From positions 3,844,001 to 3,908,000 of the forward strand of contig NZ_CP016076.1 of NCBI RefSeq assembly GCF_001941625.1: a stretch of 64,000 nucleotides of DNA, written 5' to 3'. Both the position numbers and the translations under genes were made by a program. Numbering within the stretch: the stretch's first letter is position 1; each line of letters begins with the position of its first letter. The stretch is from Actinoalloteichus fjordicus (GTDB lineage Bacteria; Actinomycetota; Actinomycetes; Mycobacteriales; Pseudonocardiaceae). Below, piece by piece: positions 667-25,000 of the stretch. The notes beneath the pieces were generated by a model. It was given only the letters and a program-made list of their open reading frames with translations, made no database searches and was not told the DNA's origin.

Positions 667-2988
667 TCAGCTGCGCCCGCCGGGGCATTCGCCGCTGACT
701 CGTTGCAGGTGTTCCCCGGTCAGCGACGGTCGGTGTGTGAGCAGTCCTGCGGGTGTTCCTTGGTAGACGATGGTGCCGCCTTGGTCGCCTGCACCTGGGC
801 CGATGTCGATGACGTGGTCTGCGTGGGCGATGACACGCTGGTTGTGTTCGATCACGACGACGGTCGCCCCGCCATCGATGAGGCGGTCGAGCAGGGCCAG
901 CAGCCTGTCGGTGTCGGAGCCGTGGAGGCCTGCGGTGGGTTCGTCGAGCACGATGCGAAGCCGAGCAGGATCGGTCGTGTCGGCGAGGTGCCTGGCGAGG
1001 AGAAGGCGTTGGCGTTCGCCTCCGGAGAGGGTGTCGGCCCCCTGCCCGATCGCGAGGTAGCCGAGGCCGACCTCCTCGAGCCAGCGCAGCCGCGGGACGA
1101 CGTCGACCTCGGCCGCGAGTAGTTCGGCGGCCTGGGCGGCCTTCATGGTGAGGACATCGGCGATCGTGTGTCCGTCCAGCGTTGCGGCGAGGGCGGTCGG
1201 GTTGAAGCGGGTGCCGTTGCATGCCTCGCAGGTGCTGCGGACATCGTCGAGGAAGGCCAGGTCGGTGACGACGACGCCTTTTCCCTTGCACGCCGGGCAG
1301 GCCCCACGCGCGTTCGCGCTGAACCACGAGGGTGACGTCCCGTTCGCGGCGGCGAACGCCTGTCGGAGCGGTTCGGCGACGCCGAGCACCGTCGCCGGAG
1401 TAGATCTGATGCCGCCGCGCAGCGGTTCTTGGCCTATGACGGTGAACTCGGGATGCTGACGCGGCAACTCGGCAGCGGCCAGGGTGCTCTTCCCTGAACC
1501 GGCGACCCCGGACACGGCGGTGAGAACCCCCAGCGGCACGTCCACGGTGACATCCCGCAGGTTGTGTCCCGTGGCATTCGCCACGGTGACCGTCTGCGAG
1601 GCTTCACGAGGGCGGCGATTGATGCGGACCCGGCCGCGCAGTATCCGACCCGTTGCGGTGTCCGTCGCGCCGAGCATGCTGGGTGCACCCTCGAACTGCA
1701 CACAGCCTCCGGCGGTTCCAGCGCCGGGTCCCAGGTCGATGACGTGATCGGCGGCAGCGATCACGTCCGGGTGATGCTCGACGACGAGGACGGTGTTGTG
1801 TGCGTCCCGCAACTGCACGAGCAGCGTCAGGAGCCGGTGCACGTCGTGCGGGTGCAGGCCGACGCTGGGCTCGTCGAAGACGAAGCAGACGTCGCTGAGC
1901 GCGCTCCCGAGATGGCGGACGATCTTTATCCGTTGTGCCTCGCCGCCAGAGAGCGTCGTCGACAAGCGACCGAGGCTGAGATATCCGAGGCCTACCGCAT
2001 CCAACGCCTCCAGGCGTTCGCGGATCGCGACGAGGACAGGCTCGACACGCACGTCGCGGAGGGCCGCGACCACCTGGCGAAGCTCACTGACAGGCAGGTC
2101 CGACCAGTCCGCGATGGAGCGATCTTCGATCAGACTTGCTCGGGCGGCGGCGTTCAGGCGTGCTCCACCGCACTCGGGGCAGGTTGCGCGCATGACCACC
2201 CGCGCAAGCCCTTCTTGTTCGTCGTCGGTGAGACGAGACGGGGTCTTGCGGAGGTAGGCGTTGCGCAGCCTGGGAATCACTCCGTCGAACAGGCCCGACT
2301 TGGGGTACTCGGGACCAGGATCGGTCAGCGGCAGATTCTCGGCGTACAGCAGGAGGTGCAGATCGTCTGCGGAGATTTCCGAGAGTGCCTGGTCGGGGTC
2401 GACGAGCGCGGAATGAACCATACGCTTCCACCGGTAGGTTCCAGGCGCGAAGGTCGGAAAGCGGATCGCTCCCTCATTCAGACTCCGCGACCTGTCGAGT
2501 AGTGCGTCGAGGTCGATATCGTCGACCGTGCCGAGGCCTTCGCAGCGCGGACACATCCCGCTCGGGTCGTTGAACGAGTACGCGGGCGAGTACCCCGCGT
2601 TCGGGATGCCGATCCGGGAGAACAGCATGCGCAGCAGCGGAGCAACGTCACTCGCCGTGCCGACCGTGGAACGGGCGTTGCCAGTGAACCGGCGTTGATC
2701 CACCACCGTGGTGTGCATCAGCCCGTCAAGTCGATCGGCATCGGCATGTCCACGCTGCGGTAGGCGATTTCGCACGAACAACGGGTACGAGTCGGCGACC
2801 AGACGCTGCGCCTCGGCGGCGATCGTGCCGAACGCCAGCGACGACTTCCCCGACCCCGAGACCCCGGTGAACACAGTGATTCGATGCTTCGGCACGCGCA
2901 CCGAGACTTCACGCAGGTTGTTCGTTCGCGCGCCCTCGACGGTGATCCACTCAGCTCTGTCCTCAACCTTGCCCATGCCTTCGGCCAC
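667..2988 (-). CDS. UvrA-like ABC ATPase (short UvrA/DrrC-type, drug-resistance class)
   Basis: 773 residues with two ABC ATPase halves. Walker A motifs are GVSGSGKSSLAFG near residue 41 and GVAGSGKSTLAA in the second half; signatures are LSGGEAQRIKI and LSGGERQRLLL. UvrA-type zinc-module cysteines are present (CPRCEGLG, CPECGGARLN, CPACKGKG and CEACNGTRFNP). It is about 170 residues shorter than housekeeping UvrA (~950), which is typical of the UvrA2/DrrC-like class often found with DNA-damaging antibiotics or in stress responses. The role (removing intercalated ligands or DNA repair) is inferred from the family. The long start is GTG at 2988; an internal ATG at 2976 preceded by GAAGG is an alternative. 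Divergent from the WYL regulator with a shared palindrome between them. Confidence 0.9.
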   Translation of the reverse strand: MAEGMGKVEDRAEWITVEGARTNNLREVSVRVPKHRITVFTGVSGSGKSSLAFGTIAAEAQRLVADSYPLFVRNRLPQRGHADADRLDGLMHTTVVDQRRFTGNARSTVGTASDVAPLLRMLFSRIGIPNAGYSPAYSFNDPSGMCPRCEGLGTVDDIDLDALLDRSRSLNEGAIRFPTFAPGTYRWKRMVHSALVDPDQALSEISADDLHLLLYAENLPLTDPGPEYPKSGLFDGVIPRLRNAYLRKTPSRLTDDEQEGLARVVMRATCPECGGARLNAAARASLIEDRSIADWSDLPVSELRQVVAALRDVRVEPVLVAIRERLEALDAVGLGYLSLGRLSTTLSGGEAQRIKIVRHLGSALSDVCFVFDEPSVGLHPHDVHRLLTLLVQLRDAHNTVLVVEHHPDVIAAADHVIDLGPGAGTAGGCVQFEGAPSMLGATDTATGRILRGRVRINRRPREASQTVTVANATGHNLRDVTVDVPLGVLTAVSGVAGSGKSTLAAAELPRQHPEFTVIGQEPLRGGIRSTPATVLGVAEPLRQAFAAANGTSPSWFSANARGACPACKGKGVVVTDLAFLDDVRSTCEACNGTRFNPTALAATLDGHTIADVLTMKAAQAAELLAAEVDVVPRLRWLEEVGLGYLAIGQGADTLSGGERQRLLLARHLADTTDPARLRIVLDEPTAGLHGSDTDRLLALLDRLIDGGATVVVIEHNQRVIAHADHVIDIGPGAGDQGGTIVYQGTPAGLLTHRPSLTGEHLQRVSGECPGGRS

Positions 2989-3011
2989 CTGCTCACGCTA
3001 CGATCAGATGC

Positions 3012-3026
3012 GGTCATATAATGACC
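3012..3026. promoter_or_regulatory. perfect palindromic operator overlapping a TATAAT -10 box
   Basis: GGTCAT-ATA-ATGACC is a perfect 6+3+6 inverted repeat in the gap between the UvrA-like gene and the WYL regulator. It contains a consensus -10 hexamer TATAAT (3017-3022) reading toward the WYL regulator. A protein bound here would block that promoter and probably the divergent one. The WYL regulator encoded next door is the obvious candidate, which is inference from position. Confidence 0.65.
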
Positions 3027-3055
3027 ACAACTCGCGGCACACGAGAGGTAGTGCG

Positions 3056-4045
3056 ATGGGCTCGCCCCGAGAGCGGATGCTCCGACTGCTCTCGCTGTTG
3101 CAGAGCGGCCGACGCTGGACTGCCACCGACCTTGCGGCTGCACTCGAGTGCACGCCCCGCACCCTGCGCCGCGACATCGAGTACCTGCGGGAGCTGGGCT
3201 ATCCCGTGACGAGCACGCGCGGTCCCGGTGGCAATTACCGGCTCGTCGCCGGCCGGGCACTGCCACCCCTCATGCTCGAAGACGACGAAGCGATCGCAAC
3301 GGTCCTGGGGTTGAAGCTGGCAGTGGCCGGGGACGTCGGGATCGGCTTCGCCGCCGAAGCCGCACAGCGAGCCGAGGAGAAGCTCCGCCGCATCCTGCCG
3401 CCCAAGTTGCGGCGCACCACCGACGAACTGCTGGTCGCCGTGGAGTTCGCTGCCGCCGCGCATCCACTGCCAGCATCCACGCTGCTGACGACGATCGCGG
3501 AAGCGATCTCCGGACACCGCAGGCTCACCTTCACATACGAGAGTAGAAAAGGCAGCGCCGAGCGTCAGGTCGAACCGACTCGACTCCTCCGGATGCAGCA
3601 ACGATGGTATCTGTTCGCCTGGGATCGGGGGCGTGCCGACTGGCGCACGTTTCGGCTGGACCGGATGACCGACAGCCCGGTCCCCGGCACCGGATTCATC
3701 CCGAGGCCGGTGCCCTCCGACGACCTCCTCGGATACACCCACGAGCACTTCCGTAGAACTCCGATGCACACCATCACGCTTACTCTCCAGACGAGTGCTC
3801 AGGACGCATCCGTGCGCCTGCATCGCATCGACGGTGTGCTCGAACCTCTCGCAAACGGCCGCTGCCGTTACACCGCCCATGTCGACTCTTACGAATGGCT
3901 CGCCCTCGTCCTGATCCTCACCGACATCGAGTTCACCATCGTAGGACCCGAGGAGTTCCGAGAATACATCGCAACACACGCGCAACGATGGACCCGCTCC
4001 GCTCGCCGAGATTCACGCCGTGACTCACCGCCCGCAGAAGATTGA
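3056..4045 (+). CDS. YafY-type transcriptional regulator (HTH + WYL domain)
   Basis: 329 residues. A DeoR/HTH_11-type winged helix occupies residues 1-60 (LAAALECTPRTLRRDIEYL, then GPGGNYRL in the wing). The WYL domain has its name-giving triplet in QQRWYLFAWD at residues 184-186, and a WCX-like C-terminal region follows. The ATG at 3056 is chosen because AGAGGT lies just upstream and the HTH starts directly after it; the frame is open further upstream but that part would overlap the promoter. WYL proteins sense ligands, often nucleic acids or nucleotides. Divergent placement suggests control of the UvrA-like gene and autoregulation through the palindrome at 3012-3026. Confidence 0.9.
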   Translation: MGSPRERMLRLLSLLQSGRRWTATDLAAALECTPRTLRRDIEYLRELGYPVTSTRGPGGNYRLVAGRALPPLMLEDDEAIATVLGLKLAVAGDVGIGFAAEAAQRAEEKLRRILPPKLRRTTDELLVAVEFAAAAHPLPASTLLTTIAEAISGHRRLTFTYESRKGSAERQVEPTRLLRMQQRWYLFAWDRGRADWRTFRLDRMTDSPVPGTGFIPRPVPSDDLLGYTHEHFRRTPMHTITLTLQTSAQDASVRLHRIDGVLEPLANGRCRYTAHVDSYEWLALVLILTDIEFTIVGPEEFREYIATHAQRWTRSARRDSRRDSPPAED

Positions 4046-4163
4046 GGACCACCCGGCCGCGCAGCGGAACGGCCCATTGGGTCGCCTCGGTCCACGCGCC
4101 AGCTTCCACCGGGAAGTCACCCCACCGCCGGGTCCTAGTCGATGAACTTGTCTACCGGTCGTC

Positions 4164-4412
4164 TCACCGGCTTCGGTGAACGAGTTGAACTCGGGAAACC
4201 CGTAGGCCAACTGCGGAGACATTCTTCGCCACCCTAGCCGTCCCGTGCCCGCGCGAAGCTCTGTTACCCGGCGGTTCGACCCGGAATCGGAGGCAGCCGT
4301 CCTCGATGACCGCGACCGCACCGTCGTGCGACGGCTTGATTCCGCAGCTGATCAGAGCACCTCGTCCCTCGTTTGATGACGACATATCTCGAGCCGTGGT
4401 GCGGAGCGGCAT
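4164..4412 (-). pseudogene. carbamoyltransferase N-terminal remnant
   Basis: An 82-codon frame whose segment ALISCGIKPSHDGAVAVIED closely matches the N-terminus of NodU/CmcH-type O-carbamoyltransferases (typically about 530-600 residues, starting with a GxKxSHDGxxAxxxD element of the ATP-binding fold). The similarity stops after ~35 residues and the rest of the family is absent. It lies just downstream of the exporter on the same strand, so both may come from a former natural-product tailoring and export locus. The rest of 4046-4439 shows nothing recognisable. Confidence 0.55.
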
Positions 4413-4439
4413 CGTCCGCGCGGCCGCGTATTCTCGCGC

Positions 4440-5696
4440 TCACTCGGCCGCCTCGTCCGGAGCGCTTACCAGGGCGCGATTGTTCAGCACGGGAGAGAAG
4501 ACCAGCGCCACCAGGATGAGAAAGACCCCACCGGCGGCATACGAGACCTGGACGGTGAACACGCTGGCGAGAACGCCGCCGAGTAGCGCACCGACCGGCC
4601 CGCCGGTCATTACCACCAGTCTGCTCGACGAGAGCACCTTCCCCAAGAGTTCAGGAGGCACGATCTGCTGGCGCAATGTGCTCACGACGACTTTCTCTGC
4701 AGTCATCAACGCACCGGTCACCATCATCATCGCGGCCGCAACCCACGCATTGTCGACGAGTCCCAGAACCAGAACGGCCGCGCCGACTCCGGTTTTTCCG
4801 GTGAGCAGCACCGTGCCGGAGCCGAACCGCTTCCTGGCGGCCGCGGCCGCCAGTCCCCCGACCGTTGCGCCCACCGCAGTGGCCATCAGTAACAGACCGA
4901 ACCCGAAATCCGGAAGTTCGAGGACCTCCTTGGCCAGCAGCGCGAGCATCGCGAACTGAGCGGTGGCGACGACGTTGCCAAGGCAGGACACCGTGGCCAG
5001 TGCCCGCAGGATCCGGTTCCCGAACAGCCACCGAATGCCCTCGACGATTTCGCTCCGCACGCTCTTGCGCGGAGCGTCGGACGTCGCCTTCGGCGTGCCA
5101 TCCGTCCTGATCGAGAGGATCACGAGGCCGCTGGCGGCGAACGAGAGAGCGTTGCCCGCGAACGGCAGGAAGTTCCACACACCGAACAGGGCGGCGCCGA
5201 GCGGGGGGCCCACGAAGTCCTCACCGTTGCTCTCCGCCGCGGCAATCCGCCCGTTCGCCGTTGCCAGGTTCCGCGGGTCCCGCGACACGAAATCGGGAAT
5301 GGCCGACTGGGCGGCGACGTCGAAGAAGACCTGGCCGATGCCCAGCAGGAACGCCGCGAGCACCAGCCACACCAGGTTCACCTGCGCAGTCAGGATGAGC
5401 ACCGCGAGAGCGACCAGGACGGCGAACCGGCCCAGATCCGCCCACACCATCACCCGCCTGCGGTCCAGCCGGTCCACCACGACACCGGCGTGCAGCGAGA
5501 CCAGCACCCAGGGAATCTCGGCGGCCACGACGACGAGGCTCAACGCCATCGGGCTGCTGCTGATCTGCAGGGCCAGCAGGGGCAACACGGCGGCGTGCAT
5601 GCCGGTGCCGATGGCCGACACGAGCGTGGCACCGAAGAGCCGGTGGAAGCGACTGCCCAGTCTCACCTTGGCGTCGTCGGACTCCTTCCTGGGCAC
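4440..5696 (-). CDS. MFS exporter (DHA3/EntS-like)
   Basis: 418 residues with about 12 hydrophobic segments, a motif-A-like loop DRLDRRRVM between TM2 and TM3, and a typical actinobacterial MFS_3 layout. The start is the GTG at 5696: it is preceded by GGAGGAA at good spacing, while the frame continuing upstream to 5921 is arginine-rich and unlike a transporter. Members of this group export drugs or siderophores by proton antiport; the substrate cannot be read from sequence. It is flanked on both sides by gene remnants, so its original operon is probably lost. Confidence 0.88.
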   Translation of the reverse strand: MPRKESDDAKVRLGSRFHRLFGATLVSAIGTGMHAAVLPLLALQISSSPMALSLVVVAAEIPWVLVSLHAGVVVDRLDRRRVMVWADLGRFAVLVALAVLILTAQVNLVWLVLAAFLLGIGQVFFDVAAQSAIPDFVSRDPRNLATANGRIAAAESNGEDFVGPPLGAALFGVWNFLPFAGNALSFAASGLVILSIRTDGTPKATSDAPRKSVRSEIVEGIRWLFGNRILRALATVSCLGNVVATAQFAMLALLAKEVLELPDFGFGLLLMATAVGATVGGLAAAAARKRFGSGTVLLTGKTGVGAAVLVLGLVDNAWVAAAMMMVTGALMTAEKVVVSTLRQQIVPPELLGKVLSSSRLVVMTGGPVGALLGGVLASVFTVQVSYAAGGVFLILVALVFSPVLNNRALVSAPDEAAE

Positions 5697-5917
5697 GTCG
5701 ATAATTCCTCCGGCCAGACTTTCACAACAGAAGACTCCAGCGCTGATTACCGCTCTGAACCGTACCGTGTGAACACGCCCGAGACGATCCTTCCGATGCT
5801 CAGAACTAGTTCCACGTTCGTCATCTCCTCGTGCCCGCAGTCGATCGAGTAGGTCTCCACTCCGCCCTGGGCGAGACCAGCCCGCCACGGTCGCGGCCGC
5901 TCCGCAGCGCCCTGCGA

Positions 5918-21554: not shown

Positions 21555-21905
21555 TCAGTCGCGGCCCAGGGACCGGCGAATCTCGTCGAGTTTCGCCCGA
21601 CCCGCCTCCTCGCGTTTCGCCCACTGCTCGTCGAGGGACTTCACATCGGGCCCCGAGCCGCCGATTCCGGCCAGTTCGATCGACCCCACGGCCGTGTTGG
21701 ACCGGTTCTCGATCTTGTCCCGCACGTAGTCGAAGCTGGGAACGCCACCCTCCGAGTAGTCCGCCGGCGGCACCGCGACGGGCGGCACCGACGCGGCAGA
21801 CGCAGGCGATGTGGTGGGGACCGACGCGGACGGGGAGCCGACCGCGGGTTCGCCGACGATCTCGGCGTCCACCACGTTGGGGTCGTCGCTCTGGGGCCCG
21901 CTCAT
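21555..21905 (-). CDS. conserved actinobacterial hypothetical protein
   Basis: 116 residues. A disordered Ser/Pro/Val/Ala-rich N-terminal half is followed by an ordered C-terminal segment (GGVPSFDYVRDKIENRSNTA, DVKSLDEQWAKREEAGRAKL, ending EIRRSLGRD) that looks coiled and charged. ATG 21905 is used because GGAGGAGG lies just upstream; a TTG one codon earlier is less likely. It is divergent from the type VII-like cassette that begins at 22430 and may belong with it. Function unknown. Confidence 0.75.
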   Translation of the reverse strand: MSGPQSDDPNVVDAEIVGEPAVGSPSASVPTTSPASAASVPPVAVPPADYSEGGVPSFDYVRDKIENRSNTAVGSIELAGIGGSGPDVKSLDEQWAKREEAGRAKLDEIRRSLGRD

Positions 21906-22429
21906 CAACTGCCTCCTCCGTCGAATGTCGCTCCCCCGACCCTACTTGGCCGCGAGACCGGCAGCGCTCGATCGCTGTCGTGAGCCCGGGCGCAGCGCGC
22001 CCAGAGCCGCGACGGGCGATCGGTGCGGAGCGGGCGGCCCGGCAGGCAGCACGTGACGACGCCCGTAGCGATCTCCGATCTACCCATCGTGATCAACAGG
22101 GCGGCCGGGGCAGGCACGGTGGCCGCGTAGTACGTCGGCCCGATCGCGCGGTGTGGTGATCGGCACCGAAGCCGACGACCCGCGGAGCAGGGCCGGCCTG
22201 CGGATCGCACGTAACCGAGGTTGCGGTCACGGGCACCGGCCGGGTCTCCTCGCCCCTGCACCCGCCTCCCGACGGCGGGCACCGCTCCCGGTCTGTCGGG
22301 TTTGCCCGGTAGCAAGCCGCTCACCAGCGCAGCCGCCGGACCTATTGACTCGTTCCGCCCCCACGCAGGCATGGCGATCACTACGCTCCGCACCTGATGC
22401 GTCACTCCGCTACGTGAATCGGAGGGGAC
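21906..22429. other. divergent promoter gap of the toxin cassette
   Basis: About 520 bases with no convincing gene. A TTGACT hexamer at 22345-22350 could be a -35 element for the rightward operon, but I see no good -10 partner. The start at 22430 has a strong GGAGGGG. Confidence 0.35.
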
Positions 22430-22882
22430 ATGGACGAGAGCATCCTCGATCCCGGCGGCGCCCGTGCGCGGCTGGCCGCCTGGAAGGGCCGGATCGACAA
22501 GCTGGCCGCCGACACTCAGGCGATGAGCGACCGGTTTCAGGCGGTGCGGATCACCGCGAACGACTCGACCGGCTTGACCGAGGTCACCATCGATTCGACC
22601 GGTGCGCTGGTGGACCTCAAGTTGACCGACCGGATTCAGCGGGTGGCGCCTGCCGTCGTCGCTCAGACGATCATGGCCACGCTCGGCGAGGCACGGACCA
22701 GGCTTGCCGAGCGGTCGCAGGAGATCATCGCGGAGACGGTGGGCACCGAGTCAGCCACGGCGAGGGCCGTCTCGGACAGCGTCGGCAGGCACCTGCGCGG
22801 CGATCCCCCACCGAAACGCCCCTCGGCACCGGACGAGGACGACGGTGACTACGACACGCGGTCCTATCTCGGGGGGCGGTGA
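22430..22882 (+). CDS. YbaB/EbfC-like protein of a type VII-like cassette
   Basis: 150 residues. The central part (VRITANDSTGLTEVTIDSTG then ALVDLKLTDRI) matches the YbaB/EbfC fold, preceded by a helix and followed by a long helix and an acidic Pro/Asp-rich tail. In actinobacteria such proteins regularly open WXG/EspC operons as small cytoplasmic helpers, rather than as nucleoid proteins beside recR. It overlaps the next gene by four bases (GTGA). First gene of the toxin operon. Confidence 0.85.
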   Translation: MDESILDPGGARARLAAWKGRIDKLAADTQAMSDRFQAVRITANDSTGLTEVTIDSTGALVDLKLTDRIQRVAPAVVAQTIMATLGEARTRLAERSQEIIAETVGTESATARAVSDSVGRHLRGDPPPKRPSAPDEDDGDYDTRSYLGGR

Positions 22883-23205
22883 GCGTGAGCGAGGGATACG
22901 AGGTCGACGTCGAGCAGTTACGCACCCATGCGGGCAATGTGGACTCCGTCGGTGCCCGGTTCGAGGCGGTGATCTCCGCCAGTTCGCATATCGCGCAGAA
23001 CGACGAGGCGTACGGGCTGCTGTGCGGATGGATCGCCGCCGTGTTGGAGGGCAGGCACACCAGACAGGACGAACTGATCGCCTATGTGGCGGAGAACCTC
23101 GCGCTCGCCGCCGAGGCCCTGCGCACCACCGCGTCCGACTACGAGGCCATGGAGGACACGGCCTCGGGGCTGATCGGCTCGGCGGGCGGTGAACTGACGC
23201 CATGA
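22879..23205 (+). CDS. EspC-like type VII secretion-associated protein
   Basis: 108 residues, all-helical, of the ESX-1-associated EspC type: YEVDVEQLRTHAGNVDSVGA at the start and LALAAEALRTTASDYEAMED in the second helix. Such helical-hairpin proteins partner with WXG-type carriers for export. GTG start overlaps the YbaB-like stop, and its own stop overlaps the next start by four bases. Confidence 0.85.
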   Translation: MSVSEGYEVDVEQLRTHAGNVDSVGARFEAVISASSHIAQNDEAYGLLCGWIAAVLEGRHTRQDELIAYVAENLALAAEALRTTASDYEAMEDTASGLIGSAGGELTP

Positions 23206-23903
23206 CCGACGACTCGCTGATCGCCCCGGTCGAGTCCTCCCGCGAGGCGTGGACGGGATCTGGTCTCGCGGAGAGTATCGAAGGGCTGGTCGATGCGATC
23301 AAGAGCGAGGGCTGGGTCGACGACGCACTGGCGGGCACCACACTGGCCGTCGAGGCCGCGGCGACCGCGATGGACCCGATCAGCGCATTGCTGGCCAACG
23401 GGCTCGGCTGGGCGATCGAGCACTTCGAGCCGCTGCGGGAGATGCTCGACGAGCTGACGGGGATACCGGACGTGGTCGCGTCCCATGCCGCTACCTGGGA
23501 CAACATGGCGTCCGAGCTGAGCGGGATGTCCACCGAACTCGGCGCTCGGCTCGACGCGGACCTCCCGGGTTGGAACGGCGACGCGGCGGACGCCTACCGG
23601 AGCATGATGTCCAACAACGTCACGGCCATCGGGGGCCTGTCCGCGATCTCGGCGGCGATGGCTGCGGCCACCGAGGGCGCGGGCGGTCTGGTGCAGTCGA
23701 CCCGCGAGCTCGTCCGCGATCTGATCGCGGACCTGGTGGCCAGGGTGATCGTCTGGGCGGTCGAGGCGATCTTCGTGGTCACCATTCCGGTGATCGCGAG
23801 CCAGATCGCGGCCGCAGTAGTCAAATGGACCGGCCGCATCCTCACCTACACCCTGGGCCTGATCGACAGCCTCACCAACCTCACCAAGCTCCTCGACGGG
23901 TAG
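23202..23903 (+). CDS. WXG100-like secretion carrier protein
   Basis: 233 residues. A helical region (about 90-170) has a WNG turn at residues 124-126 with an A-x-x-Y pattern after it (DLPGWNGDAADAYRSMM), which is the WXG100 hairpin. A hydrophobic C-terminal part follows (VIVWAVEAIFVVTIPVIAS). There is no toxin domain: the protein stops at TAG 23901, 6 bases before the toxin gene, and the toxin start is in the same reading frame. It is probably the N-terminal targeting half of what is elsewhere a single LXG/WXG toxin. Confidence 0.85.
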   Translation: MTDDSLIAPVESSREAWTGSGLAESIEGLVDAIKSEGWVDDALAGTTLAVEAAATAMDPISALLANGLGWAIEHFEPLREMLDELTGIPDVVASHAATWDNMASELSGMSTELGARLDADLPGWNGDAADAYRSMMSNNVTAIGGLSAISAAMAAATEGAGGLVQSTRELVRDLIADLVARVIVWAVEAIFVVTIPVIASQIAAAVVKWTGRILTYTLGLIDSLTNLTKLLDG

Positions 23904-23909
23904 GCGGCC

Positions 23910-24668
23910 ATGTTGAGACTGCTCGTGTTACTCCTGCTGACCGTCCGGTTCCTCTTGCACCAGAGGAGATCAGACGGCGGTGACGGCGACGGAACCTCGG
24001 ACGGCGACGGAACCCGGGACCAGCACCACGGCTCGATCGATGCGGGCGCCGGGGTGAGCAGTGCGCAGGACACCACCATGGACCTCGCACAGCGAGGCCG
24101 CCGGACGGAGACCGGCCACCAGCCCACCTCCCCGGGTCAGGACGAGACCGGCACCCAGTGGGACAACACCGAAGAGGGGACAAGCCCGCCCCGCCCCGAG
24201 GACCTCTCCCTCAGCGACGAGCGCCGCAACCACATCATGGACGGCCATGGCGAGGACGACGGCGGTGGTCACTTTCCGGGTACCGGCAAGCCGGACAAGA
24301 CCGAGTTCCCCGAGAGGTGGGCGCCCGAGGATGAGAACCGCCCCGGCGACCTGATCACCCAGCAGATCCTCGACATAGCCAGGAACCCGGACGAACCGCC
24401 GTTCTTGCAGGACAACGGGAACTGGAACGTTCAAGGCACCCGCGACGGCGTCACGGTCGAGATCATCGTCGATTCCGACGGCAACATCGTGACCGCGTTC
24501 CCCGAGGCAGGCGGGCACGGCGTGTTCAAGAACGACGAGAACGGCGATCCTGGGGTGTACACCGAGGACGGCACGTTGATTCAGCCGGACGAGAACGGCC
24601 GATGGTTCGGAGAAGATGAACGGGGCGACCCGATCGAATACGACGAGCACGGCAACCCGATCGATTAG
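23910..24668 (+). CDS. EndoU-family RNase toxin
   Basis: 252 residues. A short hydrophobic N-terminus (LRLLVLLLLTVRFLL) and a disordered charged linker lead to an EndoU domain (about 100-200). The catalytic candidates are His108 (RRNHIMDG), His121 (GGGHFPG) and Lys130 (KPDKTEFP), with the family end GVTVEIIVDSDGNIVTAFP. Known bacterial EndoU toxins cleave tRNA or other RNA. A 50-residue tail with Asp/Glu-x-x-G repeats (DENGRWFGEDERGDPIEYDE) follows and is unusual for the domain. It sits after the WXG carrier and before the presumed immunity gene. Confidence 0.85.
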   Translation: MLRLLVLLLLTVRFLLHQRRSDGGDGDGTSDGDGTRDQHHGSIDAGAGVSSAQDTTMDLAQRGRRTETGHQPTSPGQDETGTQWDNTEEGTSPPRPEDLSLSDERRNHIMDGHGEDDGGGHFPGTGKPDKTEFPERWAPEDENRPGDLITQQILDIARNPDEPPFLQDNGNWNVQGTRDGVTVEIIVDSDGNIVTAFPEAGGHGVFKNDENGDPGVYTEDGTLIQPDENGRWFGEDERGDPIEYDEHGNPID

Positions 24669-24694
24669 GGCAGACAGAGCAAGGAGACACACTG

Positions 24695-25000
24695 TTGGAC
24701 GTCGTCAAGCTGGGCAAGGCGCTGCGCAACCTGTTGGAGCGGCTCGACAGCCGTCTTGCGGAGCGGATCTCGCCGCGACAGCTCAGGTCCTACTGGTCCT
24801 ATCTCGACGCCGGGGAGCGCACCGAACTGCTCGACGCACTGTGCGCGACGCTGGTGAAGCGACAGGTCCCGGTCACCGGGGAGGAGCGGGACATCCTCGC
24901 CGGGATCCTGGCCATGTACGACAACCCCGACGCGCGCCACACCTACGTCAAGGACCCGGAGGGGGTGCTCGCGAAGCTCAACGTCACGTCCGCGTCGTGA
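24695..25000 (+). CDS. putative EndoU immunity protein
   Basis: 101 residues, predicted helical (VVKLGKALRNLLERLDSRLA; RTELLDALCATLVKRQ; DILAGILAMYDNPD). The start is TTG 24695 with AAGGAG eight bases upstream, giving a 26-base gap after the toxin. Size, helical character and position directly behind the toxin fit a cognate immunity protein that would bind and block the RNase in the producing cell. I do not recognise a named immunity family, so the role is inferred from context. Confidence 0.7.
   Translation: MDVVKLGKALRNLLERLDSRLAERISPRQLRSYWSYLDAGERTELLDALCATLVKRQVPVTGEERDILAGILAMYDNPDARHTYVKDPEGVLAKLNVTSAS

Follow-up and report, generated by a model that had tools for sequence, protein, structure and literature searches.

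A predicted WXG carrier gene and a separate, exchangeable toxin gene in Actinoalloteichus fjordicus and other soil actinobacteria

Toxins of the carrier-linked type VII kind usually reside on the same protein as their carrier. The actinobacterial WXG toxins have been described in this fused form (PMC3482391), and RHS proteins have likewise been linked to type VII systems (PMC11217815). A YxxxD/E rule for type VII export has been described, as has the toxin CpnT (PMC8092274), and an account of the ESX-1 substrates presents YbaB-like proteins as their dedicated chaperones and EspD as a stabiliser of EspA and EspC (PMC6107294). Here, we analyzed a cassette located at positions 22430 to 25000 of a 64,000-nucleotide (nt) stretch of Actinoalloteichus fjordicus DNA (contig NZ_CP016076.1, positions 3,844,001 to 3,908,000), hereafter called the window, in which a WXG carrier and a putative EndoU toxin are encoded by two separate genes. 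On the sequences compared here, soil actinobacteria of several families carry this two-gene form, consisting of a near-constant carrier and a separate, exchangeable toxin gene. We consider it likely, with some reserve, that the cassette encodes a polymorphic toxin of a type VIIa secretion system (T7SSa, or ESX), in which the WXG carrier acts in trans, the EspC-like protein supplies the YxxxD/E signal and a short motif docks the cargo. The five plus-strand open reading frames (ORFs), as read from the sequence, and the features within them are as follows.

22430..22882, plus strand: YbaB/EbfC-family protein (PF02575, 31.2 bits; Pfam gathering cut-off 25.5)
22879..23205, plus strand: EspC-like protein (PF10824, 31.2 bits; cut-off 23.5)
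23140..23154, plus strand: YxxxE, a type VII export motif near the C-terminus of the EspC-like protein, read from the translation
23202..23903, plus strand: WXG carrier of 233 amino acids, a stand-alone gene (WXG100_2, PF25547, 31.0 bits; cut-off 27)
23571..23579, plus strand: WxG motif of the carrier, W124 to G126, both residues invariant in 69 aligned rows
23901..23903, plus strand: carrier stop codon TAG (TGA or TAA instead at 53 of 110 loci)
23910..24668, plus strand: separate toxin gene, 252 amino acids (EndoU, PF14436, 31.4 bits; cut-off 25.3)
23910..23972, plus strand: hydrophobic leader of the toxin, approximately residues 1 to 21, from hydropathy
24018..24125, plus strand: conserved motif, toxin residues 37 to 72, a candidate docking tag (59.5 bits, the sequence being itself a row of the model)
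24231..24494, plus strand: EndoU domain with H108, H121, K130 and T195, from the alignment (the Pfam stretch covers residues 126 to 199)
24695..25000, plus strand: probable immunity protein of 101 amino acids

The initial annotation, made from the letters of the window alone, described a YbaB-like gene, an EspC-like gene, a WXG carrier, an EndoU toxin and a small partner gene that follow one another with mostly four-base overlaps. The succession holds in this order; "mostly" was generous, as such overlaps occur at two of the four junctions (22879-22882 and 23202-23205). A direct reading confirmed that the carrier stop is followed, after a gap of 6 nt and with the frame unchanged, by the toxin ATG at 23910, and a further 26 nt separate the toxin from the last gene, whose start codon at 24695 is TTG. 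The EndoU assignment also stood, since the profile score exceeds its cut-off. The label of an LXG-type toxin had to be given up: in the family-profile search no LXG family matched either the carrier or the toxin at an E value of ≤1, and the carrier is a WXG100_2 protein with an additional weak match to EspA_EspE. Among solved structures, the best match in a profile search with the carrier had an E value of only 0.17, and the EndoU profile search gave no match at E ≤ 0.1.

To place the cassette among its relatives, the carrier was searched in 100 relatives and in 390 genomes of the host's family, the latter yielding 69 places in 64 genomes at E ≤ 1e-55. From a search of a named collection with the carrier alignment we used the best 80 of 127 relatives, 40 of which were new by sequence. 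The 69 family places, L038 from another family and the 40 new sequences constitute the 110 loci counted below (carrier identity of at least 57.5%); L039, which has a stand-alone carrier of 44% identity and a next gene that is not toxin-like by eye, was dropped before counting. A usable second gene was obtained at 94 of the 110 loci. The remaining 16 comprise L085 and L087, in which the toxin comes after an immunity homologue, L117 with a TTG start, L129, L130 and L133, in which the toxin gene starts further off, L232, L243 and L251, whose frames were judged by eye to be misassigned, and L227, L233, L245, L247, L249, L250 and L255. Counts of changes on the carrier tree were made on 96 rows with a second gene, L232, L243 and L251 still included, and were set against 60 shuffles.

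The carrier ends at the same place, give or take a few residues, at all 110 loci, typically with a sequence resembling ...SLTNLTKLLNG and at a full length of 227 to 234 residues, and its stop codon is TAG at 57 loci, TGA at 45 and TAA at 8. At 93 of the 94 loci with a usable second gene, this gene starts 0 to 13 nt past the carrier stop, the distance being 36 nt at the last one. It lies in frame with the carrier at 33 loci and is shifted by one base at 46 and by two at 15, the chance expectation for an in-frame gap being one in three. These data bear on the proposal of the initial annotation that the toxin is occasionally fused to the carrier through readthrough of the TAG. An in-frame second gene does coincide with TAG at 23 of the 94 loci, and the window shares the in-frame TAG and the six-base gap with L032, the only other locus of the host genus among those examined, the two together representing one shared state. 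However, the identity of the stop codon varies, the frame is kept at only about a third of the loci, with at least 32 changes along the carrier tree (shuffle minimum 33, mean 39), and in L085 and L087 a homologue of the immunity gene sits between the carrier and the EndoU toxin, unlike the usual order of carrier, toxin and immunity gene. Occasional fusion by readthrough is therefore extremely unlikely.

The stop codon could also reflect a one-chain toxin that was broken by mutation or by a sequencing artefact. In line with this, the 22 best-ranked distant matches (L010-L031, 34-43% identity) and seven paralogues in the host's own genome (35-37% identity) continue as a single frame beyond the split point. 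Nevertheless, the carrier end is identical in place at every one of the 110 loci, on which grounds a pseudogene or sequencing error was rejected, and no close one-chain relative was found among those examined, so that this explanation is barely conceivable. A fused homologue, which the initial annotation would have taken as evidence against a split, was sought in the relatives, and a carrier-toxin fusion was found at none of the 110 loci. Given the common carrier end, the varied stops, the frame kept at 33 of 94 loci and the gene order of L085 and L087, conserved readthrough and artefact are ruled out for the family, and we take the split to be a conserved gene boundary, neither an artefact nor a readthrough site. 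What stands of the earlier view is thus a split polymorphic toxin with separate carrier and EndoU genes.

The one-chain relatives typically continue for 20 to 30 further helix-like residues, followed by a linker with, in many cases, a high content of Pro, Gly, Ser and Asp. In the paralogue L138 of the host genome, a frame of 1628 amino acids (749-5632) joins a distant carrier to DUF6531/RHS repeats; RHS proteins are therefore found in either arrangement, joined to a distant carrier or encoded by a second gene of their own. A further eight distant carriers (L040-L047), selected for short frames, stand alone, and hence the distant relatives include one-chain and stand-alone carriers. After the stand-alone carriers of L045 and L047, genes of approximately 620 residues start at a distance of 54 and 50 nt, respectively (3870-5780 and 3866-5728), with Pro-rich starts and weak metallopeptidase matches; this lineage is perhaps a second, independent split. 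The host paralogues L137, L139 and L140 are one-chain carriers of approximately 600 amino acids with matches to PF21725 (T7SS_signal), and no toxin family was found at E ≤ 0.01 among the five that were scanned.

The second gene is exchangeable. Its sequences formed 16 clusters in the first 64, 28 in 97 and 25 in the 94 usable genes, and the toxin type changed at least 44 times on the carrier tree (shuffle minimum 66). The predicted cargo ranges from toxins of approximately 150 residues to RHS proteins of approximately 1,250 residues. When 20 second genes were scanned against Pfam, matches above the cut-off were obtained for RHS with an LHH end, EndoU (three of four), CdiA_C, the XOO_2897 deaminase, Ntox33 and a WHH/colicin DNase; a YwqJ deaminase (L100) and the EndoU of L135 remained below it, as did a single match in L112 that is unlikely to matter, and nine of the 20 matched no Pfam family. 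By similarity, 18 second genes belong to the RHS cluster, and the Pfam scan included one of them. No WXG family was detected in the window's toxin or in the 20 scanned second genes. Collectively, the loci display the delivery genes that stay constant, the toxin that varies and the adjacent immunity gene (the last seen at EndoU loci) by which polymorphic toxins are recognized.

Despite this variety, the second genes have a common beginning. Their leader, classified by our own hydropathy threshold, is hydrophobic in 28 of the 94 genes, that of the window included, and polar in 66, and downstream of it lies a common motif of approximately 35 residues that occurs with either leader type and is 31-58% identical to that of the window among 36 aligned rows. 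The first model of this motif was built from 46 seed rows and later rebuilt twice; the first model matched 76 of the 94 second genes, and the rebuilt model matched 84 of them (in-sample) and 1 of 940 shuffled N-termini. It matched none of 443 frames from the loci of 27 one-chain relatives (L010-L031 and the paralogues L136-L140), most of the 22 best-ranked distant loci being covered to approximately 1.5 kb beyond the carrier, and an earlier search around one-chain relatives had given weak matches with a best E value of 0.015 (L030). In the host genome, the cassette holds the sole clear copy, the next match having an E value of 0.118. In the 390 genomes, 58 of 59 motif matches lay no more than 1152 bases from a carrier, and a carrier was present in 56 of the 57 genomes with a match. 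The exception, which was the only candidate there for a tagged toxin away from any carrier, is in G218 (24.7 bits; no carrier within the surrounding 8 kb); it lies in an open frame on the strand opposite a long coding-like frame and was judged a chance match.

DNA-level comparisons were made for four pairs of loci in which closely related carriers go with different toxins. Between L206 and L212, whose carriers are 97% identical and whose toxins belong to different clusters, DNA identity is 0.92-0.97 as far as the carrier stop, 0.73-0.85 in the 240 nt that follow and ≤0.57 beyond, and therefore the leader and motif have stayed with the carrier there. L206 and L209 are intermediate, with 0.53-0.72 over the 240 nt past the stop; in L209/L212 (0.43-0.65) and L074/L076 (0.47-0.62) identity drops at the stop itself, so that the whole second gene is exchangeable as well. 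The L206/L212 profile is what would be expected of a crossover zone, and the conserved start might accordingly be a mere recombination anchor for swaps of the toxin end, with export proceeding without docking on the carrier; the weak covariation of motif and carrier agrees with this. On the other hand, in the other three pairs identity falls at or near the stop, the motif persists as a protein pattern despite its low identity and regardless of leader type, and it was found only beside carriers and not around one-chain relatives, which makes an anchor without docking unlikely. The hydrophobic leaders raise another option, namely, that the toxin leaves by a route of its own, the leader serving as a signal or anchor, or that the carrier forms a channel instead of accompanying it. 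Yet 66 of the 94 second genes have a polar leader instead, and the leader types are distributed in accordance with the carrier tree (10 changes, shuffle minimum 19), as if they were matched to the carrier; we regard such an exit as quite improbable.

The genes upstream of the toxin are nearly constant. An EspC homologue was present at 108 of the 110 loci and a YbaB homologue upstream of the carrier at 103. All 108 EspC homologues have YxxxD/E at 10 to 40 residues from the C-terminus, and 109 of the 110 carriers have WxG, so the two motifs of a T7SSa substrate pair are divided between the carrier and its EspC partner. The host genome encodes EccC (926.9 bits) and EccD (284 bits), with one locus each over the cut-off. 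The EndoU gene and its small partner would also be compatible with an intracellular toxin-antitoxin or phage-defence module that exports nothing, but the constant EspC and WXG genes with their export motifs, together with the T7SSa locus, make such a module very unlikely. No carrier relative turned up when viral contigs were scanned for its pattern. At L125 (in G389), a carrier-RHS locus has no recognizable EspC or YbaB gene upstream, and L126, the second locus of the same genome, has both.

The EndoU active site consists of two His, a Lys and a Thr or Ser. H108, H121, K130 and T195, which we take to be these catalytic positions, are invariant in all 19 aligned EndoU second genes, and the two histidine motifs, visible in the alignment of relatives, sit just upstream of the stretch matched by Pfam. 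The Pfam score and the invariant residues lead us to predict that the 23910 product is an EndoU nuclease. The alignment derives from a cluster of 22 rows, reduced to 20 by removal of L078 and L241, which are not EndoU by eye; L135 was left out of it, as its second gene (2504-3133) appears to be cut short, and the neighbouring carrier was matched only from residue 70. No second EndoU was found in the host genome at E ≤ 0.001. In 19 of 20 cases the EndoU gene is followed by a small gene that can be aligned with the putative immunity gene of the window; these small genes encode 96 to 101 residues in 4 cases and 200 to 204 in 15. Compared pairwise within a database of the 19 homologues, 15 (that of the window included) matched at E ≤ 0.01, the weakest reaching 0.92 (L103). 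The window's last product remained below threshold for MafI (NF033691, 17.3 versus 31 bits) and NNH1 (18.2 versus 27 bits), and MafI was matched at E ≤ 0.1 by 8 of the 19 homologues (best E value, 0.0019). Remote kinship with MafI is thus possible, membership in that family not being claimed. Some MafB toxins are EndoU enzymes, and the MafB secretion route differs from type VII. Like the cassette, the MafB/MafI system of Neisseria combines a toxin with a small immunity protein, to which that of the window may be remotely similar (PMC4287609).

Outside these genes, a scan of the cassette for promoters and terminators found none, and a 117-amino-acid ORF on the minus strand (21555-21908), divergent to the cassette, matched no family above the cut-off.

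The reading that we favor, a T7SSa toxin whose carrier acts in trans, would operate as follows. EccC probably recognizes a helical pair made up of the WXG carrier and the EspC-like protein with its YxxxE. Before export, one or both partners are probably kept in solution by the YbaB-like protein, in a role resembling that of EspD or EspH. The EndoU toxin, which has no recognized WXG or LXG domain, probably binds to the carrier by way of its leader and the motif and probably leaves the cell together with it; export of the two as a complex is plausible. Outside, the EndoU domain would cut the RNA of a competitor, and the 101-amino-acid protein would protect the producer. With carrier and toxin encoded separately, any toxin bearing the N-terminal tag can be swapped in while the carrier stays as it is.

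Several observations weigh against this reading. Outside its seeds, the first motif model matched only 10 of 18 second genes in the first set and 15 of 33 among the new ones; even after rebuilding, the motif is absent from 10 of 94. Most of the motif matches in the 390 genomes are the loci that fed the model, and with 19 candidates scored per genome weak tags elsewhere may be missed. The motif may not serve as a dock: its identity covaries weakly with that of the carrier over different-toxin pairs (Spearman coefficient of 0.137, a value reached in 39 of 999 permutations). One of the four pairs showed the clean DNA pattern of retained leader and motif. In addition, a YxxxD/E is present somewhere in 13 of the 110 carriers themselves, approximately 2.7 Mb separate the T7SS core genes from the cassette, and the EndoU match spans half of the Pfam model (positions 64 to 128 of 129).

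More generally, the fixed YbaB-EspC-WXG module may be a trans-acting platform that exports unfused cargo recognized by a short N-terminal tag, a proposal for which we hold the case to be evenly balanced. If it is true, type VII cargo would need no helical targeting domain of its own, and the placement of that domain on another gene would constitute a natural separation of carrier from cargo. The role of the carrier could then be asked apart from the toxin, as could how a type VII system selects cargo of RHS size and how toxins are swapped while the export genes stay. Among the open-licence literature consulted, we found no description of a separate WXG carrier gene with a tagged toxin gene, which is no proof of its absence in print.

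The closest described systems share parts of this arrangement. The PEST cassettes of Mycobacterium prophages combine a small helical partner, a polymorphic toxin and an immunity gene, with predicted type VII export and recombination of the toxin end, as here, but their WXG domain is N-terminal on the toxin polypeptide, whereas the present cassette encodes its WXG carrier separately (PMC10654092). CpnT of M. tuberculosis likewise unites a secretion domain, a toxin and a YxxxE signal, yet as a single chain whose N-terminal portion bears the YxxxE, in contrast to the signal on EspC and the separate toxin gene of the cassette (PMC8092274). EspA, EspC and EspD, together with EspE and EspH of ESX-1, resemble the cassette in the EspC partner, the EspA-like carrier (by a weak match) and the YbaB-like stabiliser; as described, that set has no toxin or immunity gene, both of which the cassette contains (PMC6107294). 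Small helical partners that give a composite signal also accompany the LXG toxins with their Lap partners and the reverse toxin TslA, in which the toxin chain itself carries the helical targeting domain (at its N-terminus, or at its C-terminus in TslA), whereas here another gene encodes it (PMC10730906). The AaEAS toxin of Amycolatopsis azurea is, like that of the window, an actinobacterial toxin encoded next to a small immunity gene and a targeting factor of the type VII kind, but it is fused to an N-terminal LXG domain, which is missing here (PMC12691689). Finally, LrhA of Listeria carries RHS cargo, as do some of the second genes described above, with its helical targeting domain on the toxin chain, whereas in the cassette that domain is encoded by another gene (PMC10327511).

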